This document shows positions 23,232 through 52,844 of a stretch of 64,000 nucleotides of DNA, one piece after another. The notes beneath the pieces are model-generated. The model was not told the origin of the DNA. It saw only the letters and a program-made list of their open reading frames with translations, and ran no database searches. Each line of letters opens with the position of its first letter. Positions within the stretch are counted from its first letter, which is position 1. This DNA comes from Polytrichum commune (Eukaryota; Streptophyta; Polytrichopsida; Polytrichales; Polytrichaceae). The DNA lies in the NCBI GenBank assembly GCA_950295325.1, contig OX485805.1, forward strand, positions 40,785,501 to 40,849,500, in the 5' to 3' direction. The translations under genes and the position numbers were made by a program.

Positions 23232-23393
23232 CTACAAGAATGTCAATATACCAAGTTAATTCAATGATACTAAACAAAACTCATAAATCACATGAGGTCT
23301 TATATTGTTTTGCACTATCAAATTTTTAATATTACCATTGATTAAGATACATCCAACTGCTTTGCAAATAAATATTGACAAAGTAAAATTCAC

Positions 23394-24509: not shown

Positions 24510-24695
24510 GGGACGACACTTGTATGTGAGCTTAGAGCGGAGAGCGGAGATTTGGAGAGCGGAGAGCGTAGAGGAAATAAAAATAGTAAACTTGTCAGAC
24601 TAAAATTAGGATATTTCAAAATAGCCAAGAATATACCAAGAATATACCAAGAATCTGACAATAATAGTAAAAAATGGACCTATTTCCGTGGAATG
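24510..24695 (+). repeat. Left terminal inverted repeat of the MULE
   Basis: Outer block at 24510-24550 and inner block CCTATTTCCGTGGAAT at about 24679-24694. Between them lie extra AGCGGAGAGCG repeats and about 90 bp that the right end lacks. The match is imperfect but clear. Confidence 0.85.
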
Positions 24696-25026
24696 TATAG
24701 GTCACAAAATAAAATAAAAACCCTGAATTTGAAATGGTCTCATTAAGTTTGGAAACCGTGAGGTGGTTGAATTATTAAAACCAAGGATGACTACAAGAAA
24801 AAATCAATGAAAATGGATTTTTTGAGATTGGTATAATTGAAGAATGAGTCAATCAAAATACAAAGGAATCAAAATAATAAACTTGCTTGGTTTTTATTCA
24901 TCACTTTTCTCTTTGTCTTATATGTGAGTCTATTCTATAGCTTGGACTTTAGCAATTATCGTTTGTGGCCGAATAGATTATAAATTGGACTCATACCCAA
25001 CATAATTGTATATACAGTTGCACACA
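24696..25026. promoter_or_regulatory. Subterminal region and likely promoter of the small MULE ORF
   Basis: AT-rich, non-coding, between the left inverted repeat and the ATG at 25027. It would contain the promoter for 25027-25491, but no clear TATA box can be singled out. Confidence 0.35.
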
Positions 25027-30821: not shown

Positions 30822-32421
30822 GAGGCCTCGGATCCGAGGCCTCATATTTGTGTAAGTTTGAGTATGTGAGAGGTAGGGTTTTGAGAGAGGTGAGGTTCTT
30901 GATTTCTCAAACTAATAGAATGTCAACTTTCTTGCTTTCTTGATTCCTTGCTCTCGGCCGTTTCTTCTATTGTGTAGTGCATAAGTGGGAGCCATAGGAA
31001 GAGGCCTCGGATCCGAGGCCTCTTATTTGTGGGTAGGTTTGTGCTTGAAAAATCAAAATGTTATGTGCACATCAATTGCTCTCGGCCTTGTCTTGTTTTG
31101 TGTAGTGCATAAGAAGGAGCTATGGGAAGAGGCCTCGGATCCGAGGCCTCTTATTTGTGTAAGTTTGAGTATGTGAGAGGTAGGGTTTTGAGAGAGGTGA
31201 GGTTCTTGATTTCTCAAACTAATGGAATGTCAACTTTCTTGCTTTCTTGATTCCTTGCTCTCGGCCATTTCTTCTATTGTGTAGTGCATAACTGGGAGCC
31301 ATAGGAAGAGGCCTCGGATCCGAGGCCTCTTATTTGTGGGTAGGTTTGTGCTTGAAAAATCAAAATGTTTTGTCCACATCGATTGCTCTCGGCCTTGTCT
31401 CGTTTTGTGTAGTGCATAAGAAGGAGCTATGGGAAGAGGCCTCGGATCCGAGGCCTCATATTTGTGTAAGTTTGAGTATGTGAGAGGTAGGGTTTTGAGA
31501 GAGGCGAGGTTCTTGATTTCTCAACCTAATGGAATGTCAACTTTCTTGCTTTCTTGATTCCTTGCTCTCGGCCGTTTCTTCTATTGTGTAGTGCATAAGT
31601 GGGAGCCATAGGAAGAGGCCTCGGATCCGAGGCCTTTTATTGTGGGTAGGTTTGTGCTTGAAAAATCAAAATGTTATGTGCACATCAATTGCTCTCGGCC
31701 TTGTTTTGTTTTGTGTAGTGCATAAGAAGGAGCTAGGGGAAGAGGCCTCGGATCCGAGGCCTCATATTTGTGTAAGTTTGAGTATGTGAGAGGTAGGGTT
31801 TTGAGAGAGGTGAGGTTCTTGATTTCTCAAACTAATGGAATGTCAACTTTCTTCCATTTTTGATTCCTTGCTCTCTGCCTTGTGCCCCACGGGCGAACGC
31901 CCGTGGGCCATGTAACAAGTAACTTGGTTAGGCATGTCTTTATGAGGCACTTTGGTTGGTTCTGAGTATGTAAACTAGTTTGTGTGTGAGGCCTCGGATC
32001 CGAGGCCACTTGAGGTTTTTTGATTCAAAGTATAACTTGTATGAATGAGGCACTTTGCTTGTTTTTGAGGATGTAAACTAGTTTGTGAATGAGGCCTCGG
32101 ATCCGAGGCCTCTTTTATGTGTTCCAAAACAAGTGTACGGATGAGGCACTTTGGTTTGTTTTGAGTATGTAAACTAGTTTGTGAATGAGGCCTCGGATCC
32201 GAGGCCTCTTTTATGTGTTCCAAAACAAGTGTAGAGAAGAGGCACTTTGGTTGGTTTTGAGTATGTAAACTAGTTTGTGTGTAAGGCCTCGGATCCGAGG
32301 CCTCTCGGCCGAGGCCACTTGAGGTTTTTTGATTCAAAGTATAACTTGTATGAATGAGGCACTTTGCTTGTTTTTGAGGATGTAAACTAGTTTGTGAATG
32401 AGGCCTCGGATCCGAGGCCTC
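30822..32421. repeat. Palindrome array, left part (12 copies)
   Basis: A 22-bp perfect palindrome (half-site GAGGCCTCGGA plus its complement; contains StuI and BamHI sites) starts at 30822, 31001, 31129, 31308, 31436, 31615, 31742, 31988, 32091, 32187, 32283 and 32400. Three copies have an end mismatch. Spacing alternates 179 and 128 bp up to 31742 (a 307-bp higher-order unit), then falls to about 96-117 bp. The sequence between palindromes is also repeated (GTTTGAGTATGTGAGAGG and GTAAACTAGTTTGTG families). Confidence 0.95.
31884..31911. repeat. GC-rich hairpin within the array
   Basis: CCCACGGGCG, a 2-nt spacer AA, then CGCCCGTGGG form a near-perfect hairpin. Related versions occur near 45727, 45794 and 46176, each followed by CCATGTAACAAGTAA. 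A third hairpin type (CAGTCCCCCGGGAG to CTCCCGGGACTG) lies at about 44358-44386. Confidence 0.85.
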
Positions 32422-32462: not shown

Positions 32463-33246
32463 CACTACTAGAATACAGGGTCCGCGCCACTGCAACATTT
32501 TGTCCATGTCCCACTAACGATGTGCAGCAGTGGATGAAGACACTAACCTCATGGTGGAGCATACATGTTTGTCCTGAATATATGTATATATTCACATGTG
32601 TATATGCATGTGTATGTGTGTGTGTATGTGAAGTTACGACCACATGGACAGTCGCTATTAGGGTGCATGCATATGGATTGCGGCATGAAATGTCATGTAT
32701 TGTGTGATAATTGGAGCGGCCATTTTTGGTGACAACATCAAATTCAATGCAATTCTGTGTTTTCCGCATGCAGCATGAACATCGTGTTATGTGTTCTGCT
32801 CGTACATGTGTTCAGCATTGCACAAGTGACTGCGAGTGCCATATATATGTAATGTTCAGAACATTTTGCACGTACTGCACTGAAAGATTTTTTGTTCTGC
32901 ATACAAAACCGCATGTCTTTGCAGTATAAATATATATTACTTGAGGCAAACCCACCTCTTGACGTGCATATATACAATTGTGACAGAGGTTCACTGTTTC
33001 TAAGACCTCCAAAAGCACTTAGATTTATATAAGCTGGAGGTGGGGTGTCCATGCGTGCATGTCACTGAACACTATACCTAGACGCGGCCACTAACCCAAG
33101 AAGTACTAGCTCCTTCGTTCTCTGCCACAACACCAAAATTCCCTACTTCACATGAATATGACCACAACACATCGTCCCTCAACTGATGTCCACTACATAT
33201 ATATATGCTACAGCTGCCACATACTTTGTCAACATAGAGCCCCACA
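32463..33246. repeat. CACTA left inverted repeat and subterminal region
   Basis: The inverted repeat covers 32463-32490. The rest is non-coding, with TATATGCATGTG and TGTATGTGTG motifs of the kind transposon-encoded proteins bind in other CACTA ends. It lies downstream of the TNP2 stop (33247). Confidence 0.7.
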
Positions 33247-36200
33247 CTAATTCATCATGCGCTCCTCGAGTGCACGTGCTCGTGCACGTTCACCTCTGCT
33301 GAAGCGGATTTGTGCTCGTTCCACATCGGCTGCATCTACGATGTCCCCACCTACTTCACCTCCACCTTCCACATCGCCAACATTGTCGTTAATGCACTTT
33401 GCTTCCAATGCGTTGTAAACACCAACCCCATTCAGTATTGCCTCATCCCCTGCCTCTACCACACGGCGTGACCGAGCCTCTTTCTGAACGACAACTTTCC
33501 ATGTCCGGTCATGGCTGTCTGGTATAAAAAATACCTGCACATACAATACACAAAGTTGGAACCTTGTCAGTATATTGAAAACTACGAAGATGGCCACCTT
33601 TGTGCTCCAGTTCACCAAATGAAAATATGACCAACTTAAGGGTGTACACGCAGCATGCGCAACCCATAGATACCCACTGTGCCACATGCACATTTACCTC
33701 ACATCCCAACACAATGCATCACCTGGGACACCTGCGAGGGGAAAACATATGGTCCCTCCATGGCAGGGAGCCTCCTGTCGTGCTTCACCAAAAAAAAGCC
33801 ATATTGGTCACGTATTCTGCTGGGAGTATCACTGTTATTGTGCATGGGTATCCATGAAGCTCTCATGAGAGTGACCTTCAACGCCCCAAATGACACCATC
33901 AAAATATCTTTCAATATCCCCACATACTGTAGGGTGGCCTCCGCCAACCTTGAGTCCCCGTCAACCCCCTCGACCGTCTCCGTGAAAATGGTGCATATCG
34001 CAGAGTCGTATGTTGAGTGACGTTTAGAATGTTGCTCGTTGTCGGTCCGGTAATGGTTGCCATAGGCCCACATACGGGAGCATCTTAATGCGAGGCGTGA
34101 TGGGGGTTGTGCGATCCGCACCAAATCTTCGTCGATGTCCACTGCTGCGTCTATAGCAGTCCTCACGTACCCCTGAATCCATGCCGAAAATTGAGGCACC
34201 TCCGTTGCCAGTTCTGGGGGGTAGTCAAAAGCAGGGATGCGTCCTCATCTCCCACCACGAATTTGTTCTGCATAGCAACGTCTTCTGTGCTCTATATCTT
34301 CCCGCATGGCTCTATGCTCCCTGCCATCAGCGACACCAAATGACGGCCGCCATGTATTCATTGTCCATGCACCAATCCTCAACCAAATATACAACAGAAC
34401 TACCCACGTTTCCTACCAACACCTGCACAAACATATGTAACAAAACAACAAGCTATTGGCATTATGGAGCATGTATCCCTTTACGGGTTACCTCAGAAGG
34501 TCTTCAGTCGCCTGTGAATTGTGCAGGACATACTCGTGTATTGCAATCCGCTCTTCATTGGTCAACGTCTTCGTCCTTGCTGCGCCTTGAAGAACCTCCC
34601 CTGCCACCATCTCTTCCTCGTTTGGATCCCACATTCGCCTCCGAGTGTGAGGGTATAGGTCCAGATACTCAGTGATAAACCCAAGAGAAGCATCCCATGT
34701 GTACCCCATTGCCATGGAGCCCTCCGGCTTTGAACGATTCCTGACGTAGCCTTTGAGCACTGTCAGAAAACGCTCAATAGGGTAGCACCACCGGGTTGCC
34801 ACAGGCCCTAAGACCTCTACCTCGTCAACTAGGTGCACAAGCAAATGCACGGAAATGTCAAAAAAGGATGGAGGGAACCACCTCTCCAGCATGCACATGG
34901 TTTCAGCCACATACAACCTCAAGCTCTCCACCTCATTCTGGTCTATCACCTTTGCGCAAATTGTCGAAAAACAACGTCCTAGTCGTATTATGGCAGTCCG
35001 CGGCCCCACTGCCATGAGGTTGCGCACAATTACTGGTAGGATCTGCTCCAAAATCACATGAAAATCGTGGGATTTCAGACCCGCTAAGCGTTTTGGGCCT
35101 ACGTGCTTTGCAAAGCACGCTGCATACGCTGTTGGCGCTACCACATTCCCGAGAGTTTGCATGAATATCCTCCTCTCGTTTGGATTGAAGGTGTATGGGG
35201 CAGGTGGCTTCACATAGTTAGGACCGACACTGTTGCGCCGCAACCACAGATGTTGTCGGATTCCCTCTTCCTCGAGGTCTTTACGCACCTCTGCCGTGTC
35301 CTTCATTCCAAGCAGCAAGTTCAACAAGCTGGAGCAGACGTTGCGCTCTACATGCATTACATCTATACTGCCCCTGACTGGTAAATCCTGTGTGGAGGGT
35401 CAATAAAAAAACATGGATGTCAATATGCAGTACTGATACATATTAACTGAATTTTTTTACAAAACCATGTGTACCTTCCAATAGGGCAGACGAAACAAGA
35501 TTGGCAATCGTTTCACCCCTGTCCGAAGAGCTGGGTCGTCTCTTGCTGGAGCCCCTCCACCTCGGAGCCACCTGTTGCGCTCCTCTGCCCATCTCAATGT
35601 GTCCGCGGCTGTCACATTTCTTGGTGCTTCCCGTTCTTCCACACTCCCATCGAATGCGTGTGTGTTTTGTCTGTACGGGTGTCGGGAAGGAAGCCATCGT
35701 CTGTATTGTGCATTGTACACATTTTTCCCCAGAGTGAAAGAGTACCGCGACAGGCAATTTGGACCACATCTCGGGCAAGCGTGTTTCCCCTTCACCATGC
35801 AACCATTAATCATGGAATATGCCTCCAAATCATGGATTGTCATGATGAGCATGGCTTTCATGTTGAAAACCCTTGATCCGCCATGTGCAGCTGCGTCCAC
35901 AGTCTGAGTTCCATATTGCCAGAGCTCCATGAGCTCGTCGACTAGAGGCTCCAGAAAAGTGTCTATATTCTCTGCAGTAACGCATTCCGGCCCGGGTATT
36001 ATCAGAGCCAGAATCACAAAGTGTTTTTTCGTTGCAAGCCAGGGTGGCAGGTTGAAGTTAATCAAGGAAATGGGCCACGTGGACCAATTGGATCTTTTCT
36101 CTGCAAATGGGTTCACCCCATCAGCTGCAAGCCCCAACCGGATGTTCCTAGGATCAGCCGCAAAATCAGGCCAATTTGAGTCCACGAATCTCCATTGTGG

Positions 36201-37469
36201 GCTGTCAGGTACCATCCTCATTTTCCCGTCTGTGCTTCTATTTCTTGAATGCCAGGTCATCAACTTTGCTTGGGCCTCGGTGCCGAACATTCGTTGTAAA
36301 CGTGGTATTATAGGGAAGTGACGAAGGATTTTTCTCCCCACACGACATTCTCCCACCTGTTTGTAACGAGGTTGATGGCACTTTGGGCACTCCTCAGCGT
36401 CCTTGTGTGTTTTCCAGAACAATGTGCAGCCGCGCACACACGCGTCAATAGTATTGTACCCAAATCCTAGTCTTTTCATCTCCTTGCTTGCTTCATACTC
36501 TGTTTTAGGTAAGTGGTTGGCCTCGGGAAGCACACTGTTGGAGAGTAGACTTAGGAGTTCATCTATGAAGCTATTCGAGCATCTATGCACTCGACATGTG
36601 TTCATTAACAACACAGTGGCTGCTAACCTGGAGAACTTGGCCCCTTCAAACAGGGGGGTGCAGGCAGCTTCATTTTGGAGTATATCCTCATAAATTCCTT
36701 GTGGCCGCATTCCTGGGAGTTCCTCTTCCTCCACTTCCGTATCCGAGGCCATTGCTCCTATGTCGTCATCTTCTGAATCCTCACTGTGGTCACTGTGGTC
36801 ACTCACGGAGCTCTGGTCTGTTTGGGCACCCTCAACATCCCCATTGTCAGTATCATAGTCATCCACATCATCTTCATTGGGGTCGTCTCCCACTAACCTG
36901 TCCTCAATGGAATCAGACGGTCCCATGTCACCAGCACCCCCTTGCACGGACCCTTCATCAACATGCATGAATTCCTCATTTCCATCAGGAGCGAACCCTC
37001 TTCCCACCAAGTTCACCATGTCCACACCTGCATCCAGAGTATGGCCATCAAATACATGGGGATGATGGGTGCATCTCACCATTTCAAGGTCCCACTCCTC
37101 ATCGGAGGAGTCATATGGATCACCCTGTTGCAAGCCAGATTTGCTGGGTTTTAGTAAAGAGGATGTTGAAGTTTCATAAGAAAATGAATACAGAACACAC
37201 ATCATGGAAAAATGAAGATGCAGAAAGACGTAGGGGATATTCAAGATTACCACAGTCCACCCTCTTTGCAGATGATGGCGGCCGAGCATCCTTACGTGAC
37301 CCAGAATTGTGTCTCTCAGCAATGGTCGTGCTCCTGGACATGTCGGACAAGGACAAGAGTATCGCGTTGCGCCCACCGCATTCGCCCGTGCTTCGTCCCG
37401 TCTCCATAGTTTAATGTCCCGTGCAGATATCCTCAATGGATGGTTCAGTGGCAGCCGAGGTGCAGCCAT
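33247..37469 (-). CDS. TNP2-type CACTA transposase
   Basis: Exons: 37469-37251, 37124-35475, 35387-34492, one around 34225-33723 and 33534-33247. Family marks in order: a zinc-like CPCPTCPGAR near the N-terminus; NLPPWLATKKHFVILALIIPG; the FNMKAMLIMTIHDLEAYSMI to KGKHACPRC segment; SIDVMHVERNVCSSLL; then GLKSHDFHVILEQILPV; and the C-terminal FPSQVSQVFFIPDS, all typical of the En/Spm TNP2 family. The acidic insert after GDPYDSSDEEW is long. The splice between 34491 and about 34225 is not settled: the obvious acceptor near 34428 gives an immediate stop, so this part may be degenerate or differently spliced. Start chosen at 37469 (MAAPRLPL); an upstream in-frame ATG lies at 37523. Confidence 0.87.
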
Positions 37470-37523
37470 GAATACCAGCAACGTGGCCAAACCTGTCTTT
37501 TGGCCACAACACATAATCAACAA

Positions 37524-37817
37524 GTATCAAAATTGGTGCCTTCAGTGCTGAGCATGAACCCTCTCATGTAGTAGGTAGACTTCAATGTATTTCACAAGCA
37601 TTTCACAAGCGGCGAAGACAAATATATACAAGAAAATGACATACTTTATTTTGGATTTCCACATACTGTGGAGGTATGAACTATGGAAACCCATACACAA
37701 CATGCATGATTTCACAGCTTTGTGAGGTGAATTCCACTTCAGTTTTGGAGACTACAACCAATGACATGGCAATCCACCCCACAAAACCTCCAGATTCTAT
37801 GTAAGCACATAACAGGT
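37524..37817. other. Non-coding spacer inside the CACTA element
   Basis: About 290 bp between the TNP2 gene and the 208-residue ORF. It should hold the TNP2 promoter on the minus strand; no clear motif stands out. Confidence 0.5.
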
Positions 37818-38444
37818 TCATCTGTCCAAATGCCAATTGCTCAAACGCTTGCCCACTGCAACCCTGTCGGAAGACATGACTGCGCCCACTTCAGGTGGTA
37901 AGTACATGTATGCATCGCTGAGATTAGGAGTTCTCACTATGCCATCCCTGGCGTTTTCTAGAGCTGACTTAAGCACGATCAACCAGCGGTCAGAGATGTC
38001 TGGAAAAGGTGCAATGAGGGGTGAATGGCACATAGCGACCGTCAGATTTCTCGGCTCCGTGAGCAGGGATAAAGCATTTTTGTACTCCCGAAGCGCATGC
38101 CGACGTGCAAAATCAGCTGATGTCCCCCGCATTGTGAGACCTTTGCTATCAAATCGAGCTATTCGAAAGGCGGCCCACTCGGTCGATGTTTCAACCAGCC
38201 ATTTCCACTGACTGTTCACACATCTCAAATGGAAGAGAACATCCAGGCACTCCATATTGTGGAGGTTGCTTGCACTCATTTCGCGAATGGGTGCTACCAG
38301 AAGTGGCCATATGTTTCGAATGAACACAGAATTCGGCAATTGCAAACAGTACAGATGAGGCGGCATGAAATTCTCCGATCCACCAGCAGGCGATGCTGAG
38401 GAGACATCCATCACATTCAAGGATTTCCTGCAGCAATGGCACAA
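37818..38444 (-). CDS. CACTA accessory ORF, F-box-like
   Basis: A 208-residue ORF with a TGCAG acceptor just inside its 5' end, so it is probably a terminal exon that begins at KSLNVMDVSS. The middle part (IRNIWPLL, then LDVLFHLRCVNSQWKWLVE) has the spacing of an F-box-like helix set, with an LR-V--W-W core. The C-terminal half (SDRWLIVLKSALENARDG) is unassigned. A candidate upstream exon lies at 38674-38500 (RGSGSASHP), but the phases do not match cleanly. It lies between the TNP2 and TNP1-like genes. F-box similarity is a weak visual impression; an unknown accessory protein is equally possible. Confidence 0.45.
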   Translation of the reverse strand: MCHCCRKSLNVMDVSSASPAGGSENFMPPHLYCLQLPNSVFIRNIWPLLVAPIREMSASNLHNMECLDVLFHLRCVNSQWKWLVETSTEWAAFRIARFDSKGLTMRGTSADFARRHALREYKNALSLLTEPRNLTVAMCHSPLIAPFPDISDRWLIVLKSALENARDGIVRTPNLSDAYMYLPPEVGAVMSSDRVAVGKRLSNWHLDR

Positions 38445-39870
38445 AGTAAAAGTGAGAGAGAACTCACAACACTGTGTATTACAGGGTGCGAAGCAGAACC
38501 TGAACCTCGAGTCGTCTGTGTAGCTCGCCTACTGCCAGTTGTCCTCCAGAATCCTCTGTGGTTGCTGGAACGTCTTCCATGCACTATGTTGTGAACACTA
38601 GAAGTGCAACACTCCGATACACAAGAAAACTCACATTTAGTTGGGAAATCCAGGATGAAACGTCTGAAGGACACTTGCCAGTATTAATGTGAGGCGGCGT
38701 GGGCAGGGAATGTCAGACAGAGTATGGCAAGATGTCACTGCGACATACCTATCAATTGAGAATGTATGTGCTGATCACCTGCAAAGCTACTCGTGTTTTC
38801 CCATAGTAGGCCACAATGAAATAATCCCCCAGAGCACCGCATGAAGCACTGTTCGCCCATTACATTTCTCCCATGATGTGCAATGGGCATGTACAGGCGG
38901 CAATGGCATAACAGGACAACAAGCATGCGAGCATATGTATAGCAAGGGTGACATGAATTTCAGATCAGCAAGAGCAAGATGTTGGTGGTTTGTAAGCATG
39001 GACTGTGAGAAAGTGCAATTGATGGAGAGAAGGGTGAGGTGAGCGCAATTGGGCGAAAATACTCAGCAGGAATGGCGCAGCAAGTAGCGGGAGCGAGCCA
39101 GCGACAGAAGATGTCATCCGGAGTTGGAGCAGCGAGGAAGCTGATGGCAAGCCAAGCAACTGAAACTGTAAGTGCAGCGATCCCTTGCCGTAGGAGTTAG
39201 CTTCATGCATTCCCGCTGAAACTGAGAGTTAGGCACCATCTGCAATCATGTCCGATTAGCGACCGTCTGCAATCAGAGCAAATAGGTGGCAATTATGAAA
39301 GTTGTTGGTGACACCCATGAGCTCGCGTCGATTGCTATGAGAGGCCATCATGCACCCTGATTTCCTATGAGTAGTATACCTTCTCATCGCCATAATTGTT
39401 GGACGCCACGCTGTTTATCGCCGTCATTGCGAGCACTGAGGCTTCGCCTATGGCGGCCGTCGTCCACCCATGAGTGTTGAGAGGGGTACATGCATGTACA
39501 TGACCGGGTAGAGGGTATCAGGGTATGAGTAAACGCATATTAGGTGGGCAAGGTCCGCGTCACCTGTACGGGTATGCGGGTATGAACAGAGCCACCCATG
39601 GTGGGCATCCTTACGTGGCAGTCCCCCATCCCGGGGGAGGTTTGCGTTCTCGGAGGAGCGGTGCTGTTCGGAGGTTTGCAGCTTCGGAGGAACGTTGGTG
39701 TTCGGAACTGTGGCGAAATTGGAGGAGCGTTGCTGTTCTTCGGCGTTGCTATTGCGCTTGCTGTTCGTAGCACGTAGAGTCGGAAGTGCCACCCTCGAGA
39801 ATTACAGTAGGGTTGAAGATAAGCATACACTATCCATCTCGCAACGTCATAGAAATTCAAGTTCAGTCCG
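38445..39870. other. CACTA internal region without a confident gene
   Basis: Contains a possible upstream exon of the F-box-like ORF (38674-38500) and overlapping short ORFs on both strands (39448-39860) with no recognisable domain. It probably holds the promoter of the TNP1-like gene. Confidence 0.45.
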
Positions 39871-42539
39871 ATGTATAGTAATGAACTTTACGTGTTGGCT
39901 CCGCAGCAGGGGGGACACCAAGTGGCACACGTTGTTTTCCACCCCATGCAGTGGGGAGGCCAACCAACGGTGCCGTGTGGGAGGGTGCAGTTAAACATGC
40001 CTGGACAGAATGAATGCCGCATGACAATCACTGATTATCCACTAAATCCCTCAACGTTGTCGAAACTGCCAGTATTTGTGGAGGGGAGAGGTCAATATAC
40101 CATTCATCCATCTTTGAACTCCGCAGCTCCAGGAAGTTCTAGGGGCGACGAAGGGAGCAACATTGGTCCCCTGCTAACATCAAACACATCGCCAGATAGC
40201 GCTAGAAGATTGAGACTAAGTGCACGGAAAAAAGAAAGTAGGCGTCGTCTGTACAACTATAGGAAAGAAGTGCGGAAGTGTTTGGAAGAGGCACGGCCTA
40301 TTAGGGTTAGATGCGATACAAACGAAATAGGAGAAATTTGTGGGCTGAAAGCCAAATTCGAAGATGCAGTGAAAAGTGTAGCTTACTCTATTCTGGATCT
40401 GAACGCCAGATCGTTCGCATGCCATTCACGGAAGAACATCAAGTTTGTAGATGAAGAGGCTCGCAAGCAGTTTGAATTCTATCCTTACCCGCTCAGAGAA
40501 GGGTACACCGAGAAATACCTGAGGGAACACTTGAAGCAACTTAGGAATAAATGGAAGAGCTGGTGGTTGGCATATGGAGATTCAAGTACACCCCATGATT
40601 GCCCAGATGATGTTTGGCGAAATTGGATACGATATTGGAAGACACCTGCTGCACAGGAAGAGAGCATGAAGGGGAAGGAACGCAGAAGCAAGGCGAGAAC
40701 TCCAAGCAAAACAGGGAGAAGACGAAGCAGTGACGCATACGATGAAGAGGTGATCAGCTTAATTGGAGTAGGCTATGCGGTGCTCAAAACATACGTAAAG
40801 GACGCAAGGATTAACATGTGCAGCTGTGGATGTAGGGAAAGGATGCACTTATTTCCCAAGCGTGGACGAATGCAGAGGGCGGCCCAAGAAGTGCCAGCAA
40901 CACAAAGGTATGACAATTCCCACCCACCAACACCCTTTGCTGATTCTTCATGTAAGTATGTGTGGAATTGTTGACATGTCTTTGTGAAAACTCTGGTGCA
41001 CAGAATTTATGTCGTCAGAGGTAATTCTTGCGTCACACACAACTGACATTGTGAGGGGGATTTTCATTGCAGGGGAGAAAGAAACACGAAGCAGAGCAAG
41101 CCATGGGGACTTCAAGAAGTTTGGAGAATGATTGGCAAGTGCAGATTACTGAGAAAGTGAATTTTCTGGAGACAAAGATGATATCCATGGACAATGGCCT
41201 TGCCGGAGCAGGTGAGAACATAAAAAAAATATTGGAGCACCTACTGAAGAATTCGTCAGGGGGGACAACAACTCCCCGCAAAAAACAGTGTCGAGGCCCC
41301 CAACTATCCCCTGTGAATGACAACCAGCGCAGTGCGATTTCGGAGATTGCACGTGCGCAACATCCCAGAATCGAGCACATGTCTCCGAGGGGTCATTCGC
41401 AAATGCGCAATCATGGAGACGGTGCGGGAAGGGATGGGGAGGATGATGAAACTCAGGGTTATGATAATGAAGTAGTGGACTTGGGTGATGATGCACCATA
41501 TGTAATCCCGTGCACACAAATGAAAAAGGGAAATGCCAACTTTGGGAAAGGGAAAGGCATTGTAGTAATTGACTCCCAATCTGGCGGTGAAGATAACGAC
41601 GGCAGGTCCAGGGGAGCCCGCATGGAGGAGTATCAGAAGCGTCGACCACAACAGTTACAAGGAGAAGAGGATAGGGGGAAGAGGAGCAAAGGCACAACAG
41701 AAGCTGGAAGGAGGAGGCCGCAAAACTCATATGTTCGGGAGGATGCTGTACATAAAACAAGTACCCACATGTATAACTTCTCTGAAGAGGAGGAGAATGA
41801 TTCTGAAACGGAAACGTTGTCACCTCCAAGGAGGAGCGAGAAGAGAAGTGTTGCTATAGATTTTGGGGAGGGAGAAGAAACGACAGCGGCTGCAGGAAGG
41901 CCACGTAGCAGTAGTGACCGAAAGACAACACAGGCATGTCGATCGCTTGCCACCCCTGCGTGCGAGCGTGTTCCCCCAACCACCCAGACATACCGCCGAC
42001 AGAAAAATTCTGATGAGGCACATGGTGTGCAACCCAGTAGAGGCTCAGGAGTGGCTGCAACAGAGGTGCCACAGACCCTGAATCCCAGGAAGAACGGGGT
42101 GAGTTACAAAGCATACTTGTTGGTGCAGTGTTTGTCTGTCTTTACCACAACATTCATGGAAGTTGACATAAAATTGTGTTTGTACAACCTGGGTGTATTT
42201 GAATTGGGTTGATGTTTGGGTTTGCAGGTCCCTTTACGTTTCAATACGCAATGTTGGCTCCTACACCCAGAATTTCCCGGGAAGGTTGTTGCAGCAGGAA
42301 GGGCAGGAGTGTTTGGAAAGTCCAGAGCAAGAAAGCACAAGGACCTAAGTGACCAGTGTGAACCAGGGAACCAAATGGTGCAAGTGACAGAGGTATTGTT
42401 GCCATTGGTGCCCGTTATGTTTGATGAAGAAAGGCATGGCATTCAAAACCTGGACGAAGCTGCAGTGCCTCATGCACCGCGCGACACGTGGTTGAAGTGG
42501 GAGTCAAACTATATGATCGAGAAACCCCGATCGTACTGA
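39871..42539 (+). CDS. TNP1-like CACTA protein
   Basis: Parts: 39871-40907 (346 codons; helical Lys/Arg-rich region with KYLREHLKQLRNKWKSWW and DDVWRNWIRYWKT, resembling the plant En/Spm Ptta domain), 41073-42098 (charged, low complexity, coiled-coil start) and 42228-42539. The last exon (VAAGRAGVFGK to WLKWESNYMIE) looks like the C-terminal domain of TNP1-type proteins. Exons 2 and 3 join in phase 0. The apparent donor at 40908 and acceptor at 41072 do not join in frame, so either a small exon was missed or the gene is damaged. TNP1/TNPA proteins bind subterminal repeats and aid transposition. A SIM-like IVVIDSQSGGEDND lies in the middle part. Confidence 0.65.
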
Positions 42540-43564
42540 ATCTTGAAGAATAACACGCCATGACAGAGCATACCGTATTTTGTGACAGCCACAACTTGGG
42601 ATAGTATGACCAGAGTAGTATCATAGTGATAGCAATTGGGTTGACAAGAAAGGAGATTATGTTCTGTAGGGTGAGCTTTGGTTGTGGTTCGCACTCCACA
42701 TTGCAGAATTGCAGGGTGTGGAAGCCTGCAGGGAATTCCTCACATGTGGACGGCATTTTGTACATTTATTTTGGTGATTGGAATGGCTGATCATGAATAT
42801 GTACAAAAATATTGCGCACAATGTGTTGTATGAATAAATCTGAATGCAACAATAGTGGTTGCAATTAATGTTGGTTCACCGCATAGTTGCAGAATACGAT
42901 GGGTCATTTCAAACTGTGAGGGGGAATCAGAACACCGAACCGCACTTTGGGCATGTCATTTCATGTGTGAAGGCCTTGACAGAGAAGACTAAATTGTGTG
43001 CAGAACATGTGTCATGTATATACACATATGGATCCATATGTGTTTGCAATATTGAATGCGCGCATTTGTCCTCCCAGTGCAAGTCCCATGGAAGTGTATT
43101 TGCAGTGTTTGCTCTTTTTATTTGTTGCCCCGATGGACTTGTACTGTAGGCGCATTTGCTGTGTATGTGCATTCCATATGTGCGCACGTTGGGCATGCAC
43201 ATGCATGCATGTGCACAGTGGCGTTGTTGATGTTTTAATTTCATGTCCAACATGCATGTATGAACAACCTGGTGAAACGGAAGCCCTGTATTGGTTTCTG
43301 TGACATTGTCATGTATGACCCTATGTACAATTTCTATGAACGAGCCACACGCTGTTTGCAGCTACGTACAGAGCCAATTTATTTTGTCCCCCCCACTGAC
43401 GTGCACAAACGCATGTGCGTGACATCACGCGTTATGTTTATGGTTCTTTACAACTGGTCACCACCAACCTAGACATATTTGTGTTCCACCGTGGTGCAGT
43501 GGGTCCAAAATGCGCAAAAATTGGCACATTTCCTTGGTGGCACGGACCCTGTATTCTAGTAGTG
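42540..43564. repeat. CACTA right subterminal region and inverted repeat
   Basis: About 1 kb of non-coding sequence rich in CATATG and TGCATG motifs (for example the ATATGGATCCATAT palindrome near 43026). It ends in the inverted repeat (43537-43564). Short ORFs here show no domain. Confidence 0.7.
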
Positions 43565-43600: not shown

Positions 43601-46600
43601 GAGGCCTCGGATCCGAGGCCTCTTTTATGTGTTCCAAAACAAGTGTAGAGAAGAGGCACTTTGGTTGGTTTTGAGTATGTAAACTAGTTTGTGTGTAAGG
43701 CCTCGGATCCGAGGCCTCTCGGCCGAGGCCACTTGAGGTTTTTTGATTCAAAGTATAACTTGTATGAATGAGGCACTTTGCTTGTTTTTGAGGATGTAAA
43801 CTAGTTTGTGAATGAGGCCTCGGATCCGAGGCCTCTTTTATGTGTTCCAAAACAAGTGTACGGAAGAGGCACTTTGGTTGGTTTTGAGGATGTAAACTAG
43901 TTTGTGAATGAGGCCTCGGATCCGAGGCCTCTTTTATGTGTTCCAAAACAAGTGTACGGATGAGGCACTTTGGTTTGTTTTGAGTATGTAAACTAGTTTG
44001 TGAATGAGGCCTCGGATCCGAGGCCTCTTTTATGTGTTCCAAAACAAGTGTAGAGAAGAGGCACTTTGGTTGGTTTTGAGTATGTAAACTAGTTTGTGAA
44101 TGAGGCCTCGGATCCGAGGCCTCTTTTATGTGTTCCAAAACTAGTGTACGGATGAGGTACTATGGTTGGTTTGGAGTACGTAAATTACTTTGTGTGTGAG
44201 CCCTCGGATCCGAGGCCTCTCAGCCGAGGCCACTTGAGGTTTTTTGATTCAACGTATAGCTTGTATGAATGAGGCACTTTGCTTGTTTTTGAGTATGTAC
44301 ACTAGTTTGAAAATGAGGCCTCGGATCCGAGGCCTCCTTTTAGTGCCCTCGATCAGCAGTCCCCCGGGAGTGGCTCCCGGGACTGCGAATGTTTAAACAG
44401 GCATAACTTCCTTGATTTTTGCCCAAATGGGGCAAGTGAGGTGTCCATCGGCATCTACATTTCACGTAGATGACGATAGAGTGGTTGATTGTTAGATTCG
44501 GAGACCACACATGGAAGATATGGAGGTCTGAAGCTGCGGGGGGGGGGGAATGTGTTTTGTTAAGTGCATAAGTAGGAGCTTTGGGAAGAGGCCTCGGATC
44601 CGAGGCCTCTTTTTTGTGTCAAGGTTTGTGCTTGAAAAATCAAAATGTTAGGTTCATTTTTGAATTCTCTTGGCCATTTTCTGTAGTATGTATTTCATAA
44701 GGAGGGGCATTCGGAAGAGGCCTCGGATCCGAGGCCTCATTTTTGTGTCAAGGTATGTGCATGAAAAATTAAAAATTTATGTTCATTTTTGAATGCTCTT
44801 GGCCCTCTTGTTTTGGGTAGTGCATAAGTAGGTACTTTGTGAAGAGGCCTTGGATCCGAGGCCTCATTTTTGTGTCAAGGTAAGTGCTTGAAAAATGAAA
44901 ATCTTATGTTCATTTTTGAATGCTCTTGGCCTTCCTGTTTTGGGAAGAGGCCTCGGATCCGAGGCCTCATGTTTGAGTCAATTTTATTTAAGAAAAATCA
45001 AAATGTTATGTTCGTGTAAGATTGCTCTCGGCCTTCTTGTTTTGGGGACTACATGAGTAGGAGGTTTGTGAAGAGGCCTCGGATCCGAGGCCTCTTGTTT
45101 GTGTAAGTTTGAGTATGTGAGAGGTAGGGTTTTGAGAGAGGCGAGGTTCTTGATTTCTCAAACTAATGGAATGTCAACTTTCTTGCTTTCTTGATTCCTT
45201 GCTCTCGGCCATTTCTTCTATTGGGTAGTGCATAAGTGGGAGCCATAGGAAGAGGCCTCGGATCCGAGGCCTCTTATTTGTGGGTAGGTTTGTTCTTGAA
45301 AAATCAAAATGTTATGTGCACATCAATTGTTGTCGGCCTTGTCTTGTTTTGTGTAGTGCATAAGAAGCAGCTAGGGGAAGAGGCCTCGGATCCGAGGCCT
45401 CATATTTGTGTAAGTTTGAGTATGTGAAAGGTAGGGTTTTGAGAGAGGCGAGGTTCTTGATTTCTCAAACTAATGGAATGTCAACTTTCTTGCTTTCTTG
45501 ATTCCTTGCTTTCGGCCATTTCTTCTATTGGGTAGTGCATAAGTGGGAGCCATAGGAAGAGGCCTCGGATCCGAGGCCTCTTATTTGTGGGTAGGTTTGT
45601 GCTTGAAAAATCAAAATGTTTTGTCCACATCGATTGCTCTCGGCCTTGTCTCGTTTTGTGTAGTGCATAAGAAGGAGCTAGGGGAAGAGGCCTCGGATCC
45701 GAGGCCTCTTATTTGTGTAAGTTTGAGTATGTGAAACGCCCGTGGGCCATGTAACAAGTAATTTGGTTAGGTTTTAACATCATCAAATGTGTGCCCCACG
45801 GGTGAACACCGGTGGGCCATGTAACAGGTAACTTGGGTAGGATTTAGCATCATCATGGGGAGATGTCTCCATGTCAAATATTTTTAAAAATTATGATTTT
45901 TTTTCTCTATATTCATAACCATTGATTATATCTTTTGTATATTTTTTTGAAATTTTTTGTCATCTTCATTTTTTCTAGTAATTGTTTTAGTTGAATTCTG
46001 CGTCATTCTAGGTAGAAATGGTATGTTTTCTAGAAAAATATGGTCATCAAATTTGGTCATGATATTTTACTCCGTAATAGATATCATGTATATCTACCTC
46101 CCAAAAACATTTGAGAAAATTTTGACCCATTTTGGTGATGCAACTTGGCAATGGAGTGACCTCCCCTGGAACGTCATCAAATGTGAACCTCACGGGTGAA
46201 CACCCGTGAGCCATGTAACAAGTAAATTGGTTAGGTTTTAAAATCATCAAGGAGGGGCATTTGGAAGAGGCCTCGGATCCGAGGCCTCATTTTTGAGTCA
46301 GGTTGTGTGCTTGAAAAATAAAAATGTTAGGTTCATTTTTGAATTCTCTCGGCCATTTTATGTAGTATGTATTTCATAAGGAGGGGCATTCGGAAGAGGC
46401 CTCGGATCAGAGGCCTCATTTTTGTGTCAAGGTATGTGCTTGAAAAATGAAAATCTTATGTTCATTTTCGAATCCTCTCGGCCTTCTTGTTTTGGGTAGT
46501 GAATAAGTATGTGTTTTGGGAAGAGGCCTCGGATCCGAGGCCTCATGTTTGTGTCAATTTTATGCTAGAAAAATCAGAATGTTATGTTCGTGTAAGATTG

Positions 46601-46797
46601 CTCTCGGCCTTCTTGTTTTGGGTACTACATGAGTAGGAGGTTTGTGAAGAGGCCTCGGATCCGAGGCCTCATTTTGGAGACAATGTATGTGCTTGAAAAA
46701 TCAAACTGCTATGTTCACATAAGATTTCTCTCGGCCTTTTTCTTTTGGATAGTGCATAAGGAGGAGGTAGGAAAAGAGGCCTCGGATCCGAGGCCTC
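43601..46797. repeat. Palindrome array, right part (22 copies)
   Basis: The array continues after the CACTA. Palindromes start at 43601, 43697, 43814, 43910, 44006, 44102, 44198, 44315, 44588, 44717, 44844, 44947, 45073, 45252, 45380, 45559, 45687, 46267, 46396, 46523, 46649 and 46776. A few carry one mismatch. The 179/128-bp alternation returns at 45073-45687. A non-palindromic stretch at about 45730-46260 holds the CCCGTGGG hairpin family and AT-rich sequence. Confidence 0.95.
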
Positions 46798-46966: not shown

Positions 46967-49900
46967 GATATGGACTCTTCACAGGTTGCGCAATCGCAAC
47001 CCCAATTTGGAGAGGATATTGTTCTTGCGGCCCCCGCGGTTGAAGTTGAAGTTGTGCAGGTTGAGAGTTTCAATTCGCAGGGCCCATTACAAGTAGAGGT
47101 GAGTTGGATAGTTGTTGAGTAATTTGTTGAGCAAGTTTTTTGAGTTCTAGCTTTCTAAGCATGGTTTTATTGTTTGTGTTTTTGTTAGGCTCTCGCAATG
47201 AGCGAAGATGCCGTTCAAGCAGTTGCCAACACGGATCCCGTGGTGTGTGAGCTTGAGCTTCGGAAATCACAAAAAGAGGACTCCATTGGTGTTATCCAAC
47301 GCCTCCGGATTAAGCCAACCTGTAAGTCCCGCTTATCCATTCCTTTGTGCCGCTTGAGAGCCCTCCCTCTCGTCCGTCCTATCAGTGAGGTTGAGGTGCA
47401 GCGCTTGGAATGTGAATTTGTAATGGGATACCGAGAGGGTGATCGGGTTCTTTACGTGTCTTCTTTCAACGACGTTCCCGTGGACCTCCCCATTCCCCCT
47501 GGCATTATGGCCTCTTGGAGCCCTCTCTGGCAAGAGGCCTCCGCAGAATTTGACGCCAAGCTCAAGGAGGATCCGGATCTTGCACATTTCGCCGGGAAGA
47601 TGTTCTTCGTCTGGGAAGGCAATCATCGTCTCACCGCTTGGTGGAGACACATCAATAACCACCACGCCGATGACAAGAGTTGGCATATCTCGGTGGATTG
47701 CATTGTTGTTGACCCTAGAGGATACACCGGTGTATTCTTCAATGCCATGAGCGACATTAATTGGTAAGCTCATTCATTTTTTTCATTCATTTTTTCATTT
47801 TTGTTTCAATTCTTTTCCATTCTTTTCACCTCACGTTCCTCACATATTTTCTCTCAGGTCAACCGAGCATGATTATGTCAAGGCAAACATTCCGGCCAAG
47901 CTCCTTCGAATCCGCACTTTTGGGAGGTTAGAGTTGTCCACCTTCAAGGATCTTATATCGCCATCTGACTACAAAGCATGCGAGAAGATAAAGGAGAGTC
48001 GCCCAACTTGGTACACCTTGACCGCGGATGTGTTCGTTAAGTTTCTTTACAAGGTATGATTTTATGCATTCAATTATTTAGAGCTTCCAACATAGATAAT
48101 TTCCATGCCGATTATATGAACTCACAAGGTCATTTCTTGCAGAGAGACATTTCGGCTCAAGCAGACCTTGCAGTGAGACATTACCGTGAGACCACACCCG
48201 TTGCGGAGAGGTCGGCCACTGAGATTTGGAATGTTATGACCAAGGCCCAGGAAAGGACAATCAAAAGTATTCGGGCCCGTTCTTTTGAGAAATACATATC
48301 CGTTGCACACCCTGACAATGGAGAGGATTTCTTTCATGAGGTACTCTTTTGAACTCAAATCACTCTTGAACGCAATTCATCCAAATCACTCTTCAACTCT
48401 ATTACTCTTTTGAACTCAAATCATTTTTATTTTGTGCACAGATTGACCGCCATTTTAATGAGTTCTCTTCGACGGACATGACAATTGAAAAATTGCAAAA
48501 AATTATCACATGCCCGGTCGAAGCTTCGTTCAAAGCTAAATGGCTTCACTGGTGGAACGCCCCCCTTCGTGAAAGGTTAGATAACAAGTTCCCCGTCGAC
48601 AAGCCTATGAGGGAGAGGGTTTTGGACGACTGGCTGCACAAGGCGTCCTTCTGGGCTCAGGTAAATCCATTCCTCGGCCTTCTTCATTTTCATTTTCCTC
48701 TATTCCATTTATCTCATATCTAATCATCTCCCTCTCTGCAGTTGGAGAAGGAAGTCGCGGTTGAAATTGAGACCTTAGAGGAGAGCCTCTCCGTCGACAT
48801 TGATTGGGACGCATCAGAAACTATCTTGCGCCCTCGTGAGTACGTTGATCATTGGCGGATTGTCCTTTGGGACAAGGCCTTCAAGCCTTATTTCGGCGAT
48901 AAGCCTGACATCGCCTTTGCCAAAGGTGATAATCTCTTGGAGTTCGAGGAGGGGGCTCTCGCTATCAAGCGTGTGGCCTATCGGTAATACATCTATCCTC
49001 CACTTTGCACCTCTCCTTAATGTCATTTCTTGCTCGTTTTCTTGGTTTTCTTACATTCTTGTTTTGTCATGTAGGTATATCATGAGAGAATTGGTTGTGA
49101 AGAATGCATTGGCCTCATCTTCCTTGCCGGACTACCTCTCGGACTGGGTGAATATTTTTTCTAGCCTCTGCGTGTACACGACCGCGCAAACAAACAAGTT
49201 TTCCGAATTGCACTTGCAGGGTGGTGGATGGTACTTGGATTGTGCTGCAGGATTTGTCCCCGGGGAAGAGAAGGCTTTGTTTGCTAGCCTTGTGGGTAGT
49301 GCTCTGGATAATAACATTGTTACCTTGGAGGAGCCTAACATCGTTGAGCTTCCCCCTCCTCCTCCTAAGGCACCAAGGAGAAAGGGCAAAGCAAAGAAGA
49401 CCGCCACTCAAGCATCTTCCCAAGTTCTCACTTGGTCTGCTTCTAAGACCCCGGTTGAGCCAGCCACCCTTCCACACAGTCCATCTATCGCTCCCTCCGT
49501 TGCTCCCTCTTTTGCCCCTTCTGTTACTCCATCTGCATTTCATCCACAATCTCTTGCCACTCCATCTCACAATGGCACTTCTCTCCTCTCTTTGCCTCGC
49601 AAGAGGAAGGCCGCTCTCTTGGATACCAGTGCCACCTCTTCGGATGCCCCTAACACGCTTACCCTCATCGAAAATGTGGACATGGTTCAACTAATGCTGG
49701 ATTCCGAGGTTGCCGGAGGTCCCCTCCCCGCATATACCCGCATCCAAGAGTTCATTGCCAAGGTTTGTATACTTGCCTTCGTCAATTCTCAATTTTTTTT
49801 CCTTTGCTTTGCTTATTTTTTTCCTTCTTGTTTTCTCATGAAGTTTCAATTGCAGGTTGGGACAGGTCGTTCCCGTGTGAACACCTCGACTACAACTCAC

Positions 49901-51144
49901 AAGGGCCTCGATTTGCTCTTCGCCGACATTCCCGAGAATTTGCCGGTGCCGAACATCTCCACCGATGTTCCTGCTTGGAACAAGCTCCATGAATCATACT
50001 ATGAGTGTCTTTTTGCATTTGCGAAATCTAACATCTATGATCATGGTGTCATTGTTCTTGCCCATTGTGCGAGTGCCAGTGTTTCTAGGAGTATTTTCGA
50101 TTGGGCACACACTTATGACTTCTACATCGCGGAAGATTGGTTTGGAATGAATGATTTGGACCTCCAATCTCCCGTTGTTCCCTCTGGAGTGGTAAGCAAG
50201 TCTCCTTCTCTTCCCCTTTCGTATTGCTTATCAATTCAATTTCAATTCAATTTCATTTTCATTGTTGCAGACTCGGAAGTTCAGCATCAAAGTTCTTGTT
50301 CGTGTTAACTCCGTTCTTAGAGTGCGGGAGGAGGCCATACAAGAGTATGGTTACAACCTCCAACGAGATGGATGGTTGAATACCTTCACCGATGAGAAGA
50401 GCCAGACGATGCGCAGTGATGGGGTACCTTGGCGAGGTGCCCGTGAGAAGCATCATGTTTTTTTTTCCATCATTCTCGCTACTCTCACCGACAAGAATGA
50501 TGTTATTATGGACTGGCAGTGTGGTGTAGGTACGCCTTCTTTTTCAACTTCATCCTTACTTTGAATTTTCCATTACTTTTCCTTGACTAGTTTCCATACT
50601 AACATTTTACCTCTCTTTGCTTTAGGTGGTTCGATTACAGCATGTCGCTCCCTTGAGCGGCATATTGTGGCCCTTGAGAGTGACCCCGTCATTTTCAATT
50701 CACTCCTACTCTCCATGCGCGATCCCCAGCCTGCGCGTATATCTCGCTCAGTTGCTGCACCGTCTACATCTATCTTTGATCCTCCTCAAAAGATGACCAA
50801 GAGGGCATTCGGATTCCTTTGTGCGTAAGTTTGCTTTCTATATTTTGCCATGTTTGCCTTGATTTCAAATTCTCATTTTCTAGTGTCATCATGTTTCTAA
50901 TCCTTTTGTTTGGGTGTTTAGAGAGCCAGCGGAGGTCGCAGTCATTCGTCGAGACATGTTTTCAAGTCCTCTGAAGCCGTTTGAGCTTCCCCCGTATGTT
51001 AGTGCAATGGCGGATTGTTTTGCGAAGGCGGAGTCCCCATCTCCTCCTCGCGTTCGTCATTTCTCGCGTGGAACACGAAATCTTTTCTTGTTAGAAGCAA
51101 ATGAGGGTGAGGAAAGTGATAGGGAATGTTCTCCAAGCCCTTAG
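46967..51144 (+). CDS. ParB-like / beta-class DNA methyltransferase-like MULE cargo protein
   Basis: Exons 46967-47098, 47189-47763, 47858-48053, 48143-48340, 48442-48660, 48742-48983, 49075-49762, 49856-50191, 50271-50529, 50626-50824 and 50922-51144; every junction is GT-AG and keeps the frame. With the 5' exons the CDS is 4,071 nt (1,356 residues); alone it could start at ATG 46970. Numbering from 29645: a ParB/sulfiredoxin-like motif FFVWEGNHRLTAWW at about 451-464, then WHISVDCIVVD; a Pro-rich basic linker (PPPPPKAPRRKGKAKK) around 880; LDLLFADIPEN at 1036-1046, in the place of motif IV (D/N-PP-Y/W); HHVFFSIILATLT then VIMDWQCGVGGS (1208-1219), in the place of motifs X and I; and IVALESDP. 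Motif IV before motif I is the beta-class order. DIPE for DPPY and DWQCGVGGS for DPFCGSGTT suggest lost or altered catalysis. AATAAA at about 51199. Confidence 0.78.
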
Positions 51145-52031: not shown

Positions 52032-52124
52032 ATTCCACGGAAATAGGCACTGCTTCTCCTAAAATTACCCAACAAAATCTAAATTTTCCGCTCTCCGCTC
52101 TACGCTCACATACTTGAGTTTCCC
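52032..52124 (-). repeat. Right terminal inverted repeat of the MULE
   Basis: Read inward on the minus strand: GGGAAACTCAAGTATGTG, then the AGAGCGGAGAGCGGA block, then CCTATTTCCGTGGAAT. It matches the left end. Confidence 0.87.
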
Positions 52125-52133
52125 GCGAGGATA
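52125..52133. repeat. Target site duplication of the MULE (right)
   Basis: GCGAGGATA, identical to 24501-24509. Confidence 0.93.
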
Positions 52134-52844
52134 GTCATGAGGAAAGATAATGCTATCCAATTCACCACCTTCGGCCTTTGCAAGACCCTTTACTCGCCCC
52201 ATTAGATACTGTACAAGCATGCAATTCTTGCAACTTGCACTTTTGCACATTTCCAAGTGCTTTGAAAACCTTTCATACATTGAATCATGGTCCTCTGCAA
52301 CTTCATCGATGCATGTTGGAAAAATTGTTGTAGACCTTTCAATCTTCAAAATTTCAGCTTCTCGACTAGGACAACGTTGACGATGTATGTTGCACATTGT
52401 GTGGAAAGAACATTCAAAGTCCTCGAGAAGCTCTCTGAAGGTCTCTTTGTTATTCATTTGCTTCACCACAACCCGACACCAATCCCCCTTGCAGCATTCT
52501 TCTATCACACATTTTGCCTTCTTCACAATGAGGAGCATGTCTTCCTCCACTCGACGAAAGACTTTCCCATGTGAACTATTGGTGATCGTTTCAATTGCTT
52601 GCACACCCTTGCGTAAATTGTCCAATAAATTTTCACATTGCCGTCTATTCAAAACTTCCTTTGACAATGATAATTTGGGAAAATTTGCGATCTCCATTGG
52701 TACCCGTAGAAAGTTTGTCATTTTCAACACCGGTGTTTTTTGTTCCGTTGTCGTTTCCGTTAAATCATTGTTGTCAAAAATACTCTTTGTGAAGAACGAG
52801 TAGTATACACATGCAAGCACACTCATAATGAGATGCAAAATCAA
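52125..52844 (-). pseudogene. 5' part of the kinase exon, receptor copy 2
   Basis: Encodes 240 residues from MILHLIMSVL to FPHDYPR, nearly identical to the start of copy 1 (4211-3492). Reading then runs into the MULE right end. The remaining kinase exon lies at 23394-24509, over 27 kb away. As it stands the locus could make only this N-terminal fragment plus transposon-derived residues. Confidence 0.9.

Follow-up and report, generated by a model that had tools for sequence, protein, structure and literature searches.

We analyzed a 64,000-nucleotide stretch of the genome of the moss Polytrichum commune (GenBank assembly GCA_950295325.1, contig OX485805.1, positions 40,785,501 to 40,849,500 of the forward strand; C3:40785501-40849500 in our numbering), here called the window. 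It lies in a 408-Mb genome of 64 contigs, over which all genome searches were run. The window contains a complete transposon with a transposase gene and a second, divergently oriented gene, here called the accessory gene. Its product carries an N-terminal domain with a GNHR motif and a C-terminal methyltransferase-like domain, and the family to which it belongs is family A. The strongest finding is that families of accessory proteins are paired with families of palindromes: between its two genes the window element has an array of a single long palindrome, and four related gene families are preceded by recurrent palindromes (dyads) of their own. This pairing was absent from the first-pass annotation, which was made from the letters of the window.

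Palindrome arrays and accessory protein families

The window contains 34 sites of the 22-bp palindrome GAGGCCTCGGATCCGAGGCCTC (up to one mismatch), all between the transposase and the accessory gene; no site was found in 100 shuffles of the window. The genome contains 1903 exact sites, and the reversed control sequence gave none. Seven other family-A loci with upstream DNA carry 5 to 28 sites each (up to two mismatches). The four bases on either side of the 12-bp core, which had no part in site selection, agree between subfamilies at 0.87 to 0.97, and bases 10 to 60 away agree at 0.20 to 0.37, which is near chance (window versus L014, L015, and L016). Closer pairs and L017 retain more flank identity around the sites. 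When sites were not preselected, the commonest 12-mer came from the palindrome in six of seven family-A upstream stretches, L017 being the exception. Only 18 distinct 12-mers are common to the window and L014, and the most frequent among these fall within the palindrome or on its borders. As judged from these comparisons, diverged subfamilies have retained the palindrome, with most of their spacers replaced. Tandem duplication alone would be expected to take the spacers along as well.

Recurrent dyads were found upstream of four other families (C, D, E, and F), each with a different dyad, one of them weak. The family-C dyad TGTCTCGGNNCCGAGACA is present at 14 sites in L077 and 12 sites in L034 (up to two mismatches), and at 1310 exact sites in the genome; the two loci were judged to be one family from their near-identical GGGWYLD exons. 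In family D (L068), a dyad of 36 bp recurs eight times in the stretch from transposase to accessory gene and once between exons of the gene (up to three errors). Its exact copies number eight in the genome, four in each of two family-D elements. The family-E dyad TGTGCGTTAACGCACA (L078) has eight exact sites locally and 694 in the genome. Just upstream of the family-E gene, a second palindrome (TTGGGTCGGCCGACCCAA) was also seen five times at a spacing of 32 to 64 bp (L078, 3832-4010).

Reversed controls for three later dyad searches gave no sites. The dyad detector found no dyad recurring three times in any of 23 control stretches. There were 27 such stretches at first; L033_a and L034_b, both adjoining family-C copies, passed the detector, and the four L033/L034 stretches were dropped post hoc. 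No cross-hits between dyad types were seen in 12 of the 13 array-bearing loci tabulated (the table was made without L033, and L075, which is almost all N, was left out of the dyad counts). Among the matches listed, clusters on C1 had a superfamily or element feature no further than 15 kb away in four of seven cases for the E type, four of five for the C type, and three of four for the A type, with random expectations of 0.13, 0.10, and 0.04, respectively.

The transposase of family D is 84% identical to that of the window, its dyad is unrelated, and its accessory exons match at 27 to 38%. In L014 and L018 the transposases are 87% identical, the accessory exons about 73 to 85%, and the palindrome core of the window is kept. 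This one contrast, which is not a tree, suggests that dyad identity goes with the accessory protein and not with the transposase.

The methyltransferase-like domain

With the full accessory protein as query, Pfam gave no match up to E = 10. A genome search with PF01555 gave no match at the window gene; it gave 115 places on large contigs up to E = 10, and among five of these that were fetched two sister families (B and C) were recognized. The window protein aligns to family B in its N-terminal part (33%, E = 7e-22) and in its C-terminal part (23% over 535 residues, E = 3e-23), and family B passes PF01555 (32.5 bits, model positions 1-216 of 221). A joint profile of families A, B, and C matches 5hfj (E = 5.7e-9) and CcrM (6pbd; E = 9.1e-4) over profile positions 25-233 of 243. 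The record of 5hfj says DpnA; we take the enzyme to be M1.HpyAVI. PF01555 matches four of five family members up to E = 10 (best E = 1.6e-8). The window's own domain reaches E = 0.097 with 13 bits versus a cut-off of 26.7, and the window family by itself gives marginal matches only. The methyltransferase parts were also aligned by hhalign to phage and bacterial ParB-methyltransferase fusions (93%, E = 3.5e-7, 53 columns). Motifs IV, X, and I follow each other in that order in the accessory protein. The C-terminal domain is thus predicted to have a permuted beta-class DNA-methyltransferase fold, an assignment made for the window domain because the sister families match methyltransferase profiles. 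The first-pass annotation had described a beta-class IV-X-I region here, which the profiles bear out by way of these sister families.

Motif IV reads ADIPEN in the window and ADLPEG, AEYPDG, LQFPDG, ADYPDG, ADIPEG, ADIPDG, VDQPEG, or VDIPDG in relatives, with VDIPYG in the family-B locus L030. The tyrosine is replaced by E or D in 13 of the 14 sequences inspected across families (the window, L030-L032, two in L033, L034, and L067-L073), the exception being L030 (DIPY). Within family A, DIPE is kept in 16 of the 17 other copies and L016 has DIPK. At the first position of DIPE, D is replaced by E in L068 and by Q in L069. A catalytic DPPY or SPPY motif was not found in the window protein, and motif I is partly kept. 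Because the motif IV tyrosine is replaced, the accessory protein is probably a pseudo-methyltransferase.

The two domains recur together. The methyltransferase-like domain is found 3' of the GNHR exon in seven of ten further loci (L067-L073); it was not seen within the 5 kb fetched for L065, L066, and L074. A GNHR exon lies 1.5 to 12 kb upstream on the same strand at 27 of the 115 PF01555 places (0.3 at random, maximum 3). In family B (L030-L032), an open frame resembling a protein kinase lies ahead of the accessory gene and may belong to it; the frame in L032 matches Pkinase at E = 5.6e-7, just below the cut-off.

The N-terminal GNHR domain

A search with the family-B GNHR domain gave 1007 candidates, of which 150 were scored, all 150 at E ≤ 3.2e-22. 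In an alignment of 14 chosen members (A3), which holds 11 of the 20 relatives fetched, GNHRxxAW, an upstream arginine (R28), and a closing asparagine (N156) are invariant. Departures outside this alignment are DDNHR in L043 and EGDHR in L052, and in family A RNHR in L015, GNHRLTT in L016, and GNHH in L022. The GxxRxxA box with an upstream R and a downstream N is present, yet the motif alone is weak evidence for ParB.

The domain had been called ParB-like in the first-pass annotation, and here the profile tests were negative. PF02195 gave no match at the accessory gene at E = 0.001, and nothing ParB-like was found in the 14 family members with Pfam and NCBIfam or in the PDB profile search. Alignment by hhalign to ten bacterial and phage ParB domains gave a probability of 0.3%, in a run without a positive control at such a distance. 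What speaks for ParB is the GNHR..A motif and a sub-threshold match to a PHROG "ParB-like" profile in 4 of the 14 members (best E = 0.046); in the two members displayed, this match and the GNHR box are in register. With a pLDDT of 40, a model of 47276-47761 made by AlphaFold from the single sequence was uninformative. ParB was rejected as an established label because Pfam, NCBIfam, PDB, and hhalign are all without a ParB match.

No relative was found at a meaningful E-value among phages (best E = 2) or plasmids (best E = 0.6), nor any in viral contigs and prokaryote genomes in scans seeded with one or two short peptides only. A 443-aa true ParB-methyltransferase fusion with DPPY is present on the small contig C12 (L055, G000:C12:28500-30600). 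The small contigs C10, C12, and C23, which carry bacterial-type genes, are probably assembly contamination.

The accessory gene and its transposon

The spliced accessory frame (3264 nt) has no internal stop, and all ten introns are GT-AG. We fetched and aligned 17 other family-A copies; alignments A1 and A2 take five rows each of the resulting 18. In 12 near copies, canonical donors number 117 of 120 and canonical acceptors 116 of 120; in five diverged copies, the counts are 44 of 45 (exons 2-10) and 46 of 50. The ratio of non-synonymous to synonymous substitution rates (dN/dS) between the window and the five diverged copies is 0.17 to 0.22 (dN about 0.12, dS about 0.6), and their introns differ at 35 to 38% of sites. 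By region, the ratio to diverged copies is 0.07 to 0.10 in the GNHR domain, 0.32 to 0.40 in the linker, and 0.17 to 0.25 in the C-terminal domain. Besides the window, L024 is the only one of the 17 that is stop-free with all splice sites canonical; the remaining aligned copies have stops, frameshifts, splice defects, or cut ends. Family A has at least 41 loci in the genome, the window's counted (exon-by-exon search), and 150 further relatives of the wider superfamily were scored (150 of 1007 candidates). Copy lists were collated by hand from several searches, and the counts resting on them are lower bounds.

By these substitution patterns, purifying selection on the accessory gene is strong, and the gene is judged to be real. 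A chance reading frame was rejected on the conserved splice sites, low dN/dS, and diverged introns. Capture of a host gene, as in Pack-MULE cargo (MULE, Mutator-like element), was rejected because the copies are many, the partner gene is divergent, and selection is purifying. The eleven exons with consistent GT-AG junctions first proposed from the letters hold up, with splice conservation across 17 copies beyond chance, and the motifs quoted with them are present (GNHR at aa 187-190, LLFADIPEN, DWQCGVGGS, and ALESDP). "Transposon cargo" was the wrong word for a gene that belongs to the core of a large superfamily of elements.

The transposon spans 24511-52124 and is flanked by a 10-bp target site duplication (TSD); it ends in terminal inverted repeats (TIRs). 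The coordinates are listed in Table 1. Its ends recur in the genome: among the matches listed, those to the left end begin at query base 1 in 38 of 41 cases (self included), and those to the right end stop at query base 125-126, equal to window 52124-52125, in 34 of 40 non-self cases. Pairing the entries of the left-end and right-end match lists gave 17 other end pairs. A perfect 10-bp TSD lies at the exact ends in 14 of them and is shifted by 1 nt in another; of the remaining two, one shows a single mismatch and the other lacks a TSD. The transposase has at least 60 scored copies in the genome (self included, 84 to 100% identity). At least 27 of these 60 have an accessory gene in divergent orientation no more than 30 kb upstream (25 of family A and two of family D; random mean 0.49, maximum 3).

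Table 1. Coordinates of the transposon, its genes, and its repeats in the window
Feature	Position	Strand	Remarks
TSD, left copy GCGAGGATAG	24501..24510	.	same 10-mer at 52125-52134
Left TIR (inner limit approximate)	24511..24556	+	24522-24548 pairs with 52113-52087, 27 bp, 96%
Transposase exon 2	25653..27104	-	C-terminal part, CxC...CxH, SWIM-like by eye
Transposase exon 1	27202..29325	-	open frame
Palindrome array part 1	30822..32421	.	12 sites of GAGGCCTCGGATCCGAGGCCTC, up to one mismatch
Nested CACTA element, 11.1 kb	32463..43564	.	28-bp TIR CACTAC.., TSD TTG
Palindrome array part 2	43601..46797	.	22 sites, ending about 170 bp before the start codon
Accessory gene	46970..51144	+	11 exons, 1087 aa: GNHR domain, GGGWYLD middle region, basic/proline linker, permuted methyltransferase-like domain
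Accessory gene exons 1-4	46970-47098, 47189-47763, 47858-48053, 48143-48340	+	
Accessory gene exons 5-8	48442-48660, 48742-48983, 49075-49762, 49856-50191	+	
Accessory gene exons 9-11	50271-50529, 50626-50824, 50922-51144	+	
Exon 2, N-terminal GNHR (ParB-like) domain	47189..47763	+	G187-N-H-R190 at 47618-47629
Motif IV position	49925..49936	+	D-I-P-E in place of D-P-P-Y
Motif I and acidic strand (DWQCGVGGS...ALESD)	50511..50685	+	split by intron 9 (50530-50625)
Right TIR (inner limit approximate)	52079..52124	-	
TSD, right copy	52125..52134	.	

The spliced transposase gave no MULE, SWIM, or other confident Pfam match, and PF10551 showed no overlap with the 60 transposase copies among the 150 places listed (150 of 271 candidates scored). 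The earlier label MULE stands as far as the 10-bp TSD and the TIRs go and fails for the transposase, which matches no Pfam MULE model, PF10551 included. The element is probably Mutator-like, a call made on TSD and TIRs alone because the transposase lacks such a match. A TSD range of 8 to 11 bp is given for MULEs in the sections of PMC6446971 that deal with it.

The element sits in a protein-kinase-NBS-LRR (nucleotide-binding site, leucine-rich repeat) gene on the minus strand, with flanks at 19947-24500 and 52135-52844. Genes of this type are not known outside mosses. Joined across the empty site, the flanks give one continuous frame that leads into the kinase portion of this receptor-like gene. 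This read-through indicates that the insertion broke the gene, probably recently. The nested CACTA element (Pfam Transposase_21, E = 3.1e-64; DUF4218, E = 1.4e-32) splits the palindrome array and is outside the system of transposase and accessory gene. Close to its left end, the window transposon also has an open frame of 161 codons (25006-25491, plus strand), which gave no confident Pfam match.

Discussion

The sections of PMC5735166 and PMC10398659 that treat VANC of the Arabidopsis VANDAL elements describe a protein that lifts silencing and whose binding sites are element-specific motifs in tandem-repeat arrays; the motif arrays lie in non-coding DNA, with tandem-repeat turnover and co-evolution of protein and motif. 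On that description the Polytrichum system is similar in being the accessory gene of a Mutator-type element with an element-specific motif in non-coding tandem repeats, and in that array and protein diverge together between families. Element-specific arrays in non-coding DNA were found, with L033 and L034 as exceptions. The VANC motifs, as described there, are 8 to 9 bp long and in one orientation, whereas the Polytrichum dyads are 18 to 36 bp long. Anti-silencing has been demonstrated for VANC and is proposed for the accessory protein, and VANC was compared by its published description.

The beta-class enzymes M1.HpyAVI (5hfj) and CcrM (6pbd), together with PF01555, have the same permuted IV-X-I order. 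The accessory protein differs in having D-I-P-E in place of the catalytic DPPY, in its fusion to a GNHR domain and a long middle region, and in being encoded by an intron-rich eukaryotic gene. ParB-methyltransferase fusions such as OP947158 ("ParB-like partition protein") and L055 share the layout of a GxxR domain followed by a permuted methyltransferase; their N-terminal domains do not align by profile with that of the accessory protein. The four fusions aligned have DPPY in three cases and DFPY in OP947158, so that the tyrosine is kept in all, unlike in the accessory protein. Rotifer N4CMT, as presented in parts of PMC8885841, is likewise a bacterial-type N6_N4 methyltransferase in a eukaryote with a transposon connection; it is a host gene with an active SPPY motif and a chromodomain, whereas the accessory protein is transposon-encoded and has an altered catalytic motif. 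Among eukaryotes, according to the same parts of that paper, the beta-type enzyme is without homologs. Extra genes are known from MULEs, namely mudrB, vanB, and vanC (in the relevant sections of PMC6446971). A term search in the main text of a survey of eukaryotic adenine methylation (PMC12695648) gave no moss, bryophyte, or ParB, and no description of the accessory gene family was found in the open-access literature searched.

We lean, at slightly better than even chance, towards the view that the accessory protein is an element-specific DNA-binding regulator by which the transposon recognizes itself, working like VANC and built from other parts. It would bind the array in the promoter region common to both genes, probably as a dimer because the sites are palindromic, with the old methyltransferase domain serving as a reader and not a writer. 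The regulator would keep its own element expressed, by anti-silencing or by transcriptional self-activation, as VANC does for VANDAL, and if protein and array changed rapidly together, each family would be able to address itself alone. A dimeric DNA reader of its own element is suggested because the palindromes are long, the fold is under selection without its catalytic residue, and the array occupies the shared-promoter position.

Repeated binding sites for the transposase, internal or subterminal, occur in many DNA transposons. The array, which sits between both genes, might in the same manner be a binding platform for the transposase, and the accessory protein a MURB-like transposition helper that itself does not bind the palindromes. 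We think this unlikely: the array is central, not subterminal, and the single contrast of family D (84% transposase identity, unrelated dyad) with L014 and L018 (87%, same core) does not fit it. It strikes us as rather improbable that the accessory protein has DNA-methyltransferase activity with its unusual catalytic motif and methylates adenine or N4-cytosine in its own palindromes to mark or protect the element. In favor of this, the protein retains the fold and the motif I region, one family-B copy (L030) has DIPY, and GATC, GTTAAC, and GAATTC, which resemble adenine-methylation sites, occur in the palindromes of families A, E, and F, respectively. The DPPY tyrosine, however, is E or D in nearly all sequences inspected across families and K in the family-A copy L016. 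Rotifer N4CMT loses activity when SPPY is changed to APPA, according to the experiments in the part of PMC8885841 concerned.

A system of the ParB-parS kind, loading on the palindromes and spreading for clustering, partition, or copy control, would agree with the palindromic sites, with the GNHRxxA box, upstream arginine, and closing asparagine of the 14 A3 members, and with the weak in-register PHROG match in four of them. We give it very little credence, as no ParB profile match was obtained by Pfam, NCBIfam, PDB, or hhalign and nuclear chromosomes do not need a partition system. We attach equally scant probability to the dyads being passive tandem or small-RNA-producing repeats without a protein partner, recurring as a by-product of tandem duplication. 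The array units are indeed tandemly duplicated, with periods of, for example, 96, 127, and 307 bp; the palindrome, however, is kept across units of different period and across subfamilies with differing spacers, and the 23 control stretches retained yielded no dyad recurring three times.

Several observations weigh against a self-recognizing regulator paired with its own palindrome. Some concern the arrays of other families. The 26-bp family-F dyad (L076) has three copies only, and the family-B loci fetched (L030-L032) showed no array. L033, with family-C copies beside the left end of a family-A element, has seven A-type sites (up to one mismatch) and no C-type site; L034 has two A-type sites beside its 12 C-type sites, and L077 has one A-type core in a looser count. 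The loci tested for dyads had been picked as relatives and not at random. Within family A, the sites of the flank comparison were picked by the 12-bp core, and the core identity of 0.93 to 0.99 arises partly by construction. L017 keeps nine sites, its commonest 12-mers are non-palindromic, and it has 137 distinct 12-mers in common with the window. Array sharing within a family could be partly concerted turnover of tandem repeats. The ratio of observed to expected CpG in the arrays is an unremarkable 0.48 to 0.62, with no sign of hypomethylation. For 33 of the 60 transposase copies no accessory gene was found among the matches listed. Finally, dN/dS rises to 2.1 in the C-terminal domain (about 2, window versus L024 and L021) and to 4.1 in the linker (window versus L013). 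Recent copy pairs exceed 1 in parts of aa 601-1010, where changes are few and may be noise or a change of specificity.

The self-recognizing regulator could have a wider history, which we put forward as a possible and on balance doubtful extension. A plant transposon lineage may have taken over a fusion of the bacterial or phage ParB-methyltransferase type, which lost catalysis and radiated into well over 100 element-borne DNA readers, each with its own long palindrome array. This would amount to a eukaryotic self-recognition code, part VANC and part parS, built of pseudo-methyltransferases, whose protein and array are swapped between transposase lineages as a module. A self-recognizing regulator of the kind proposed, with or without this history, would be a second, independently built case of transposon self-recognition by an arrayed motif and a co-evolving protein, and VANC would therefore no longer be an Arabidopsis curiosity. 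The many protein families and dyads of one genome would then form a natural data set on how specificity and target change together, and the fold of a DNA-modifying enzyme would have been turned into a reader within a transposon.

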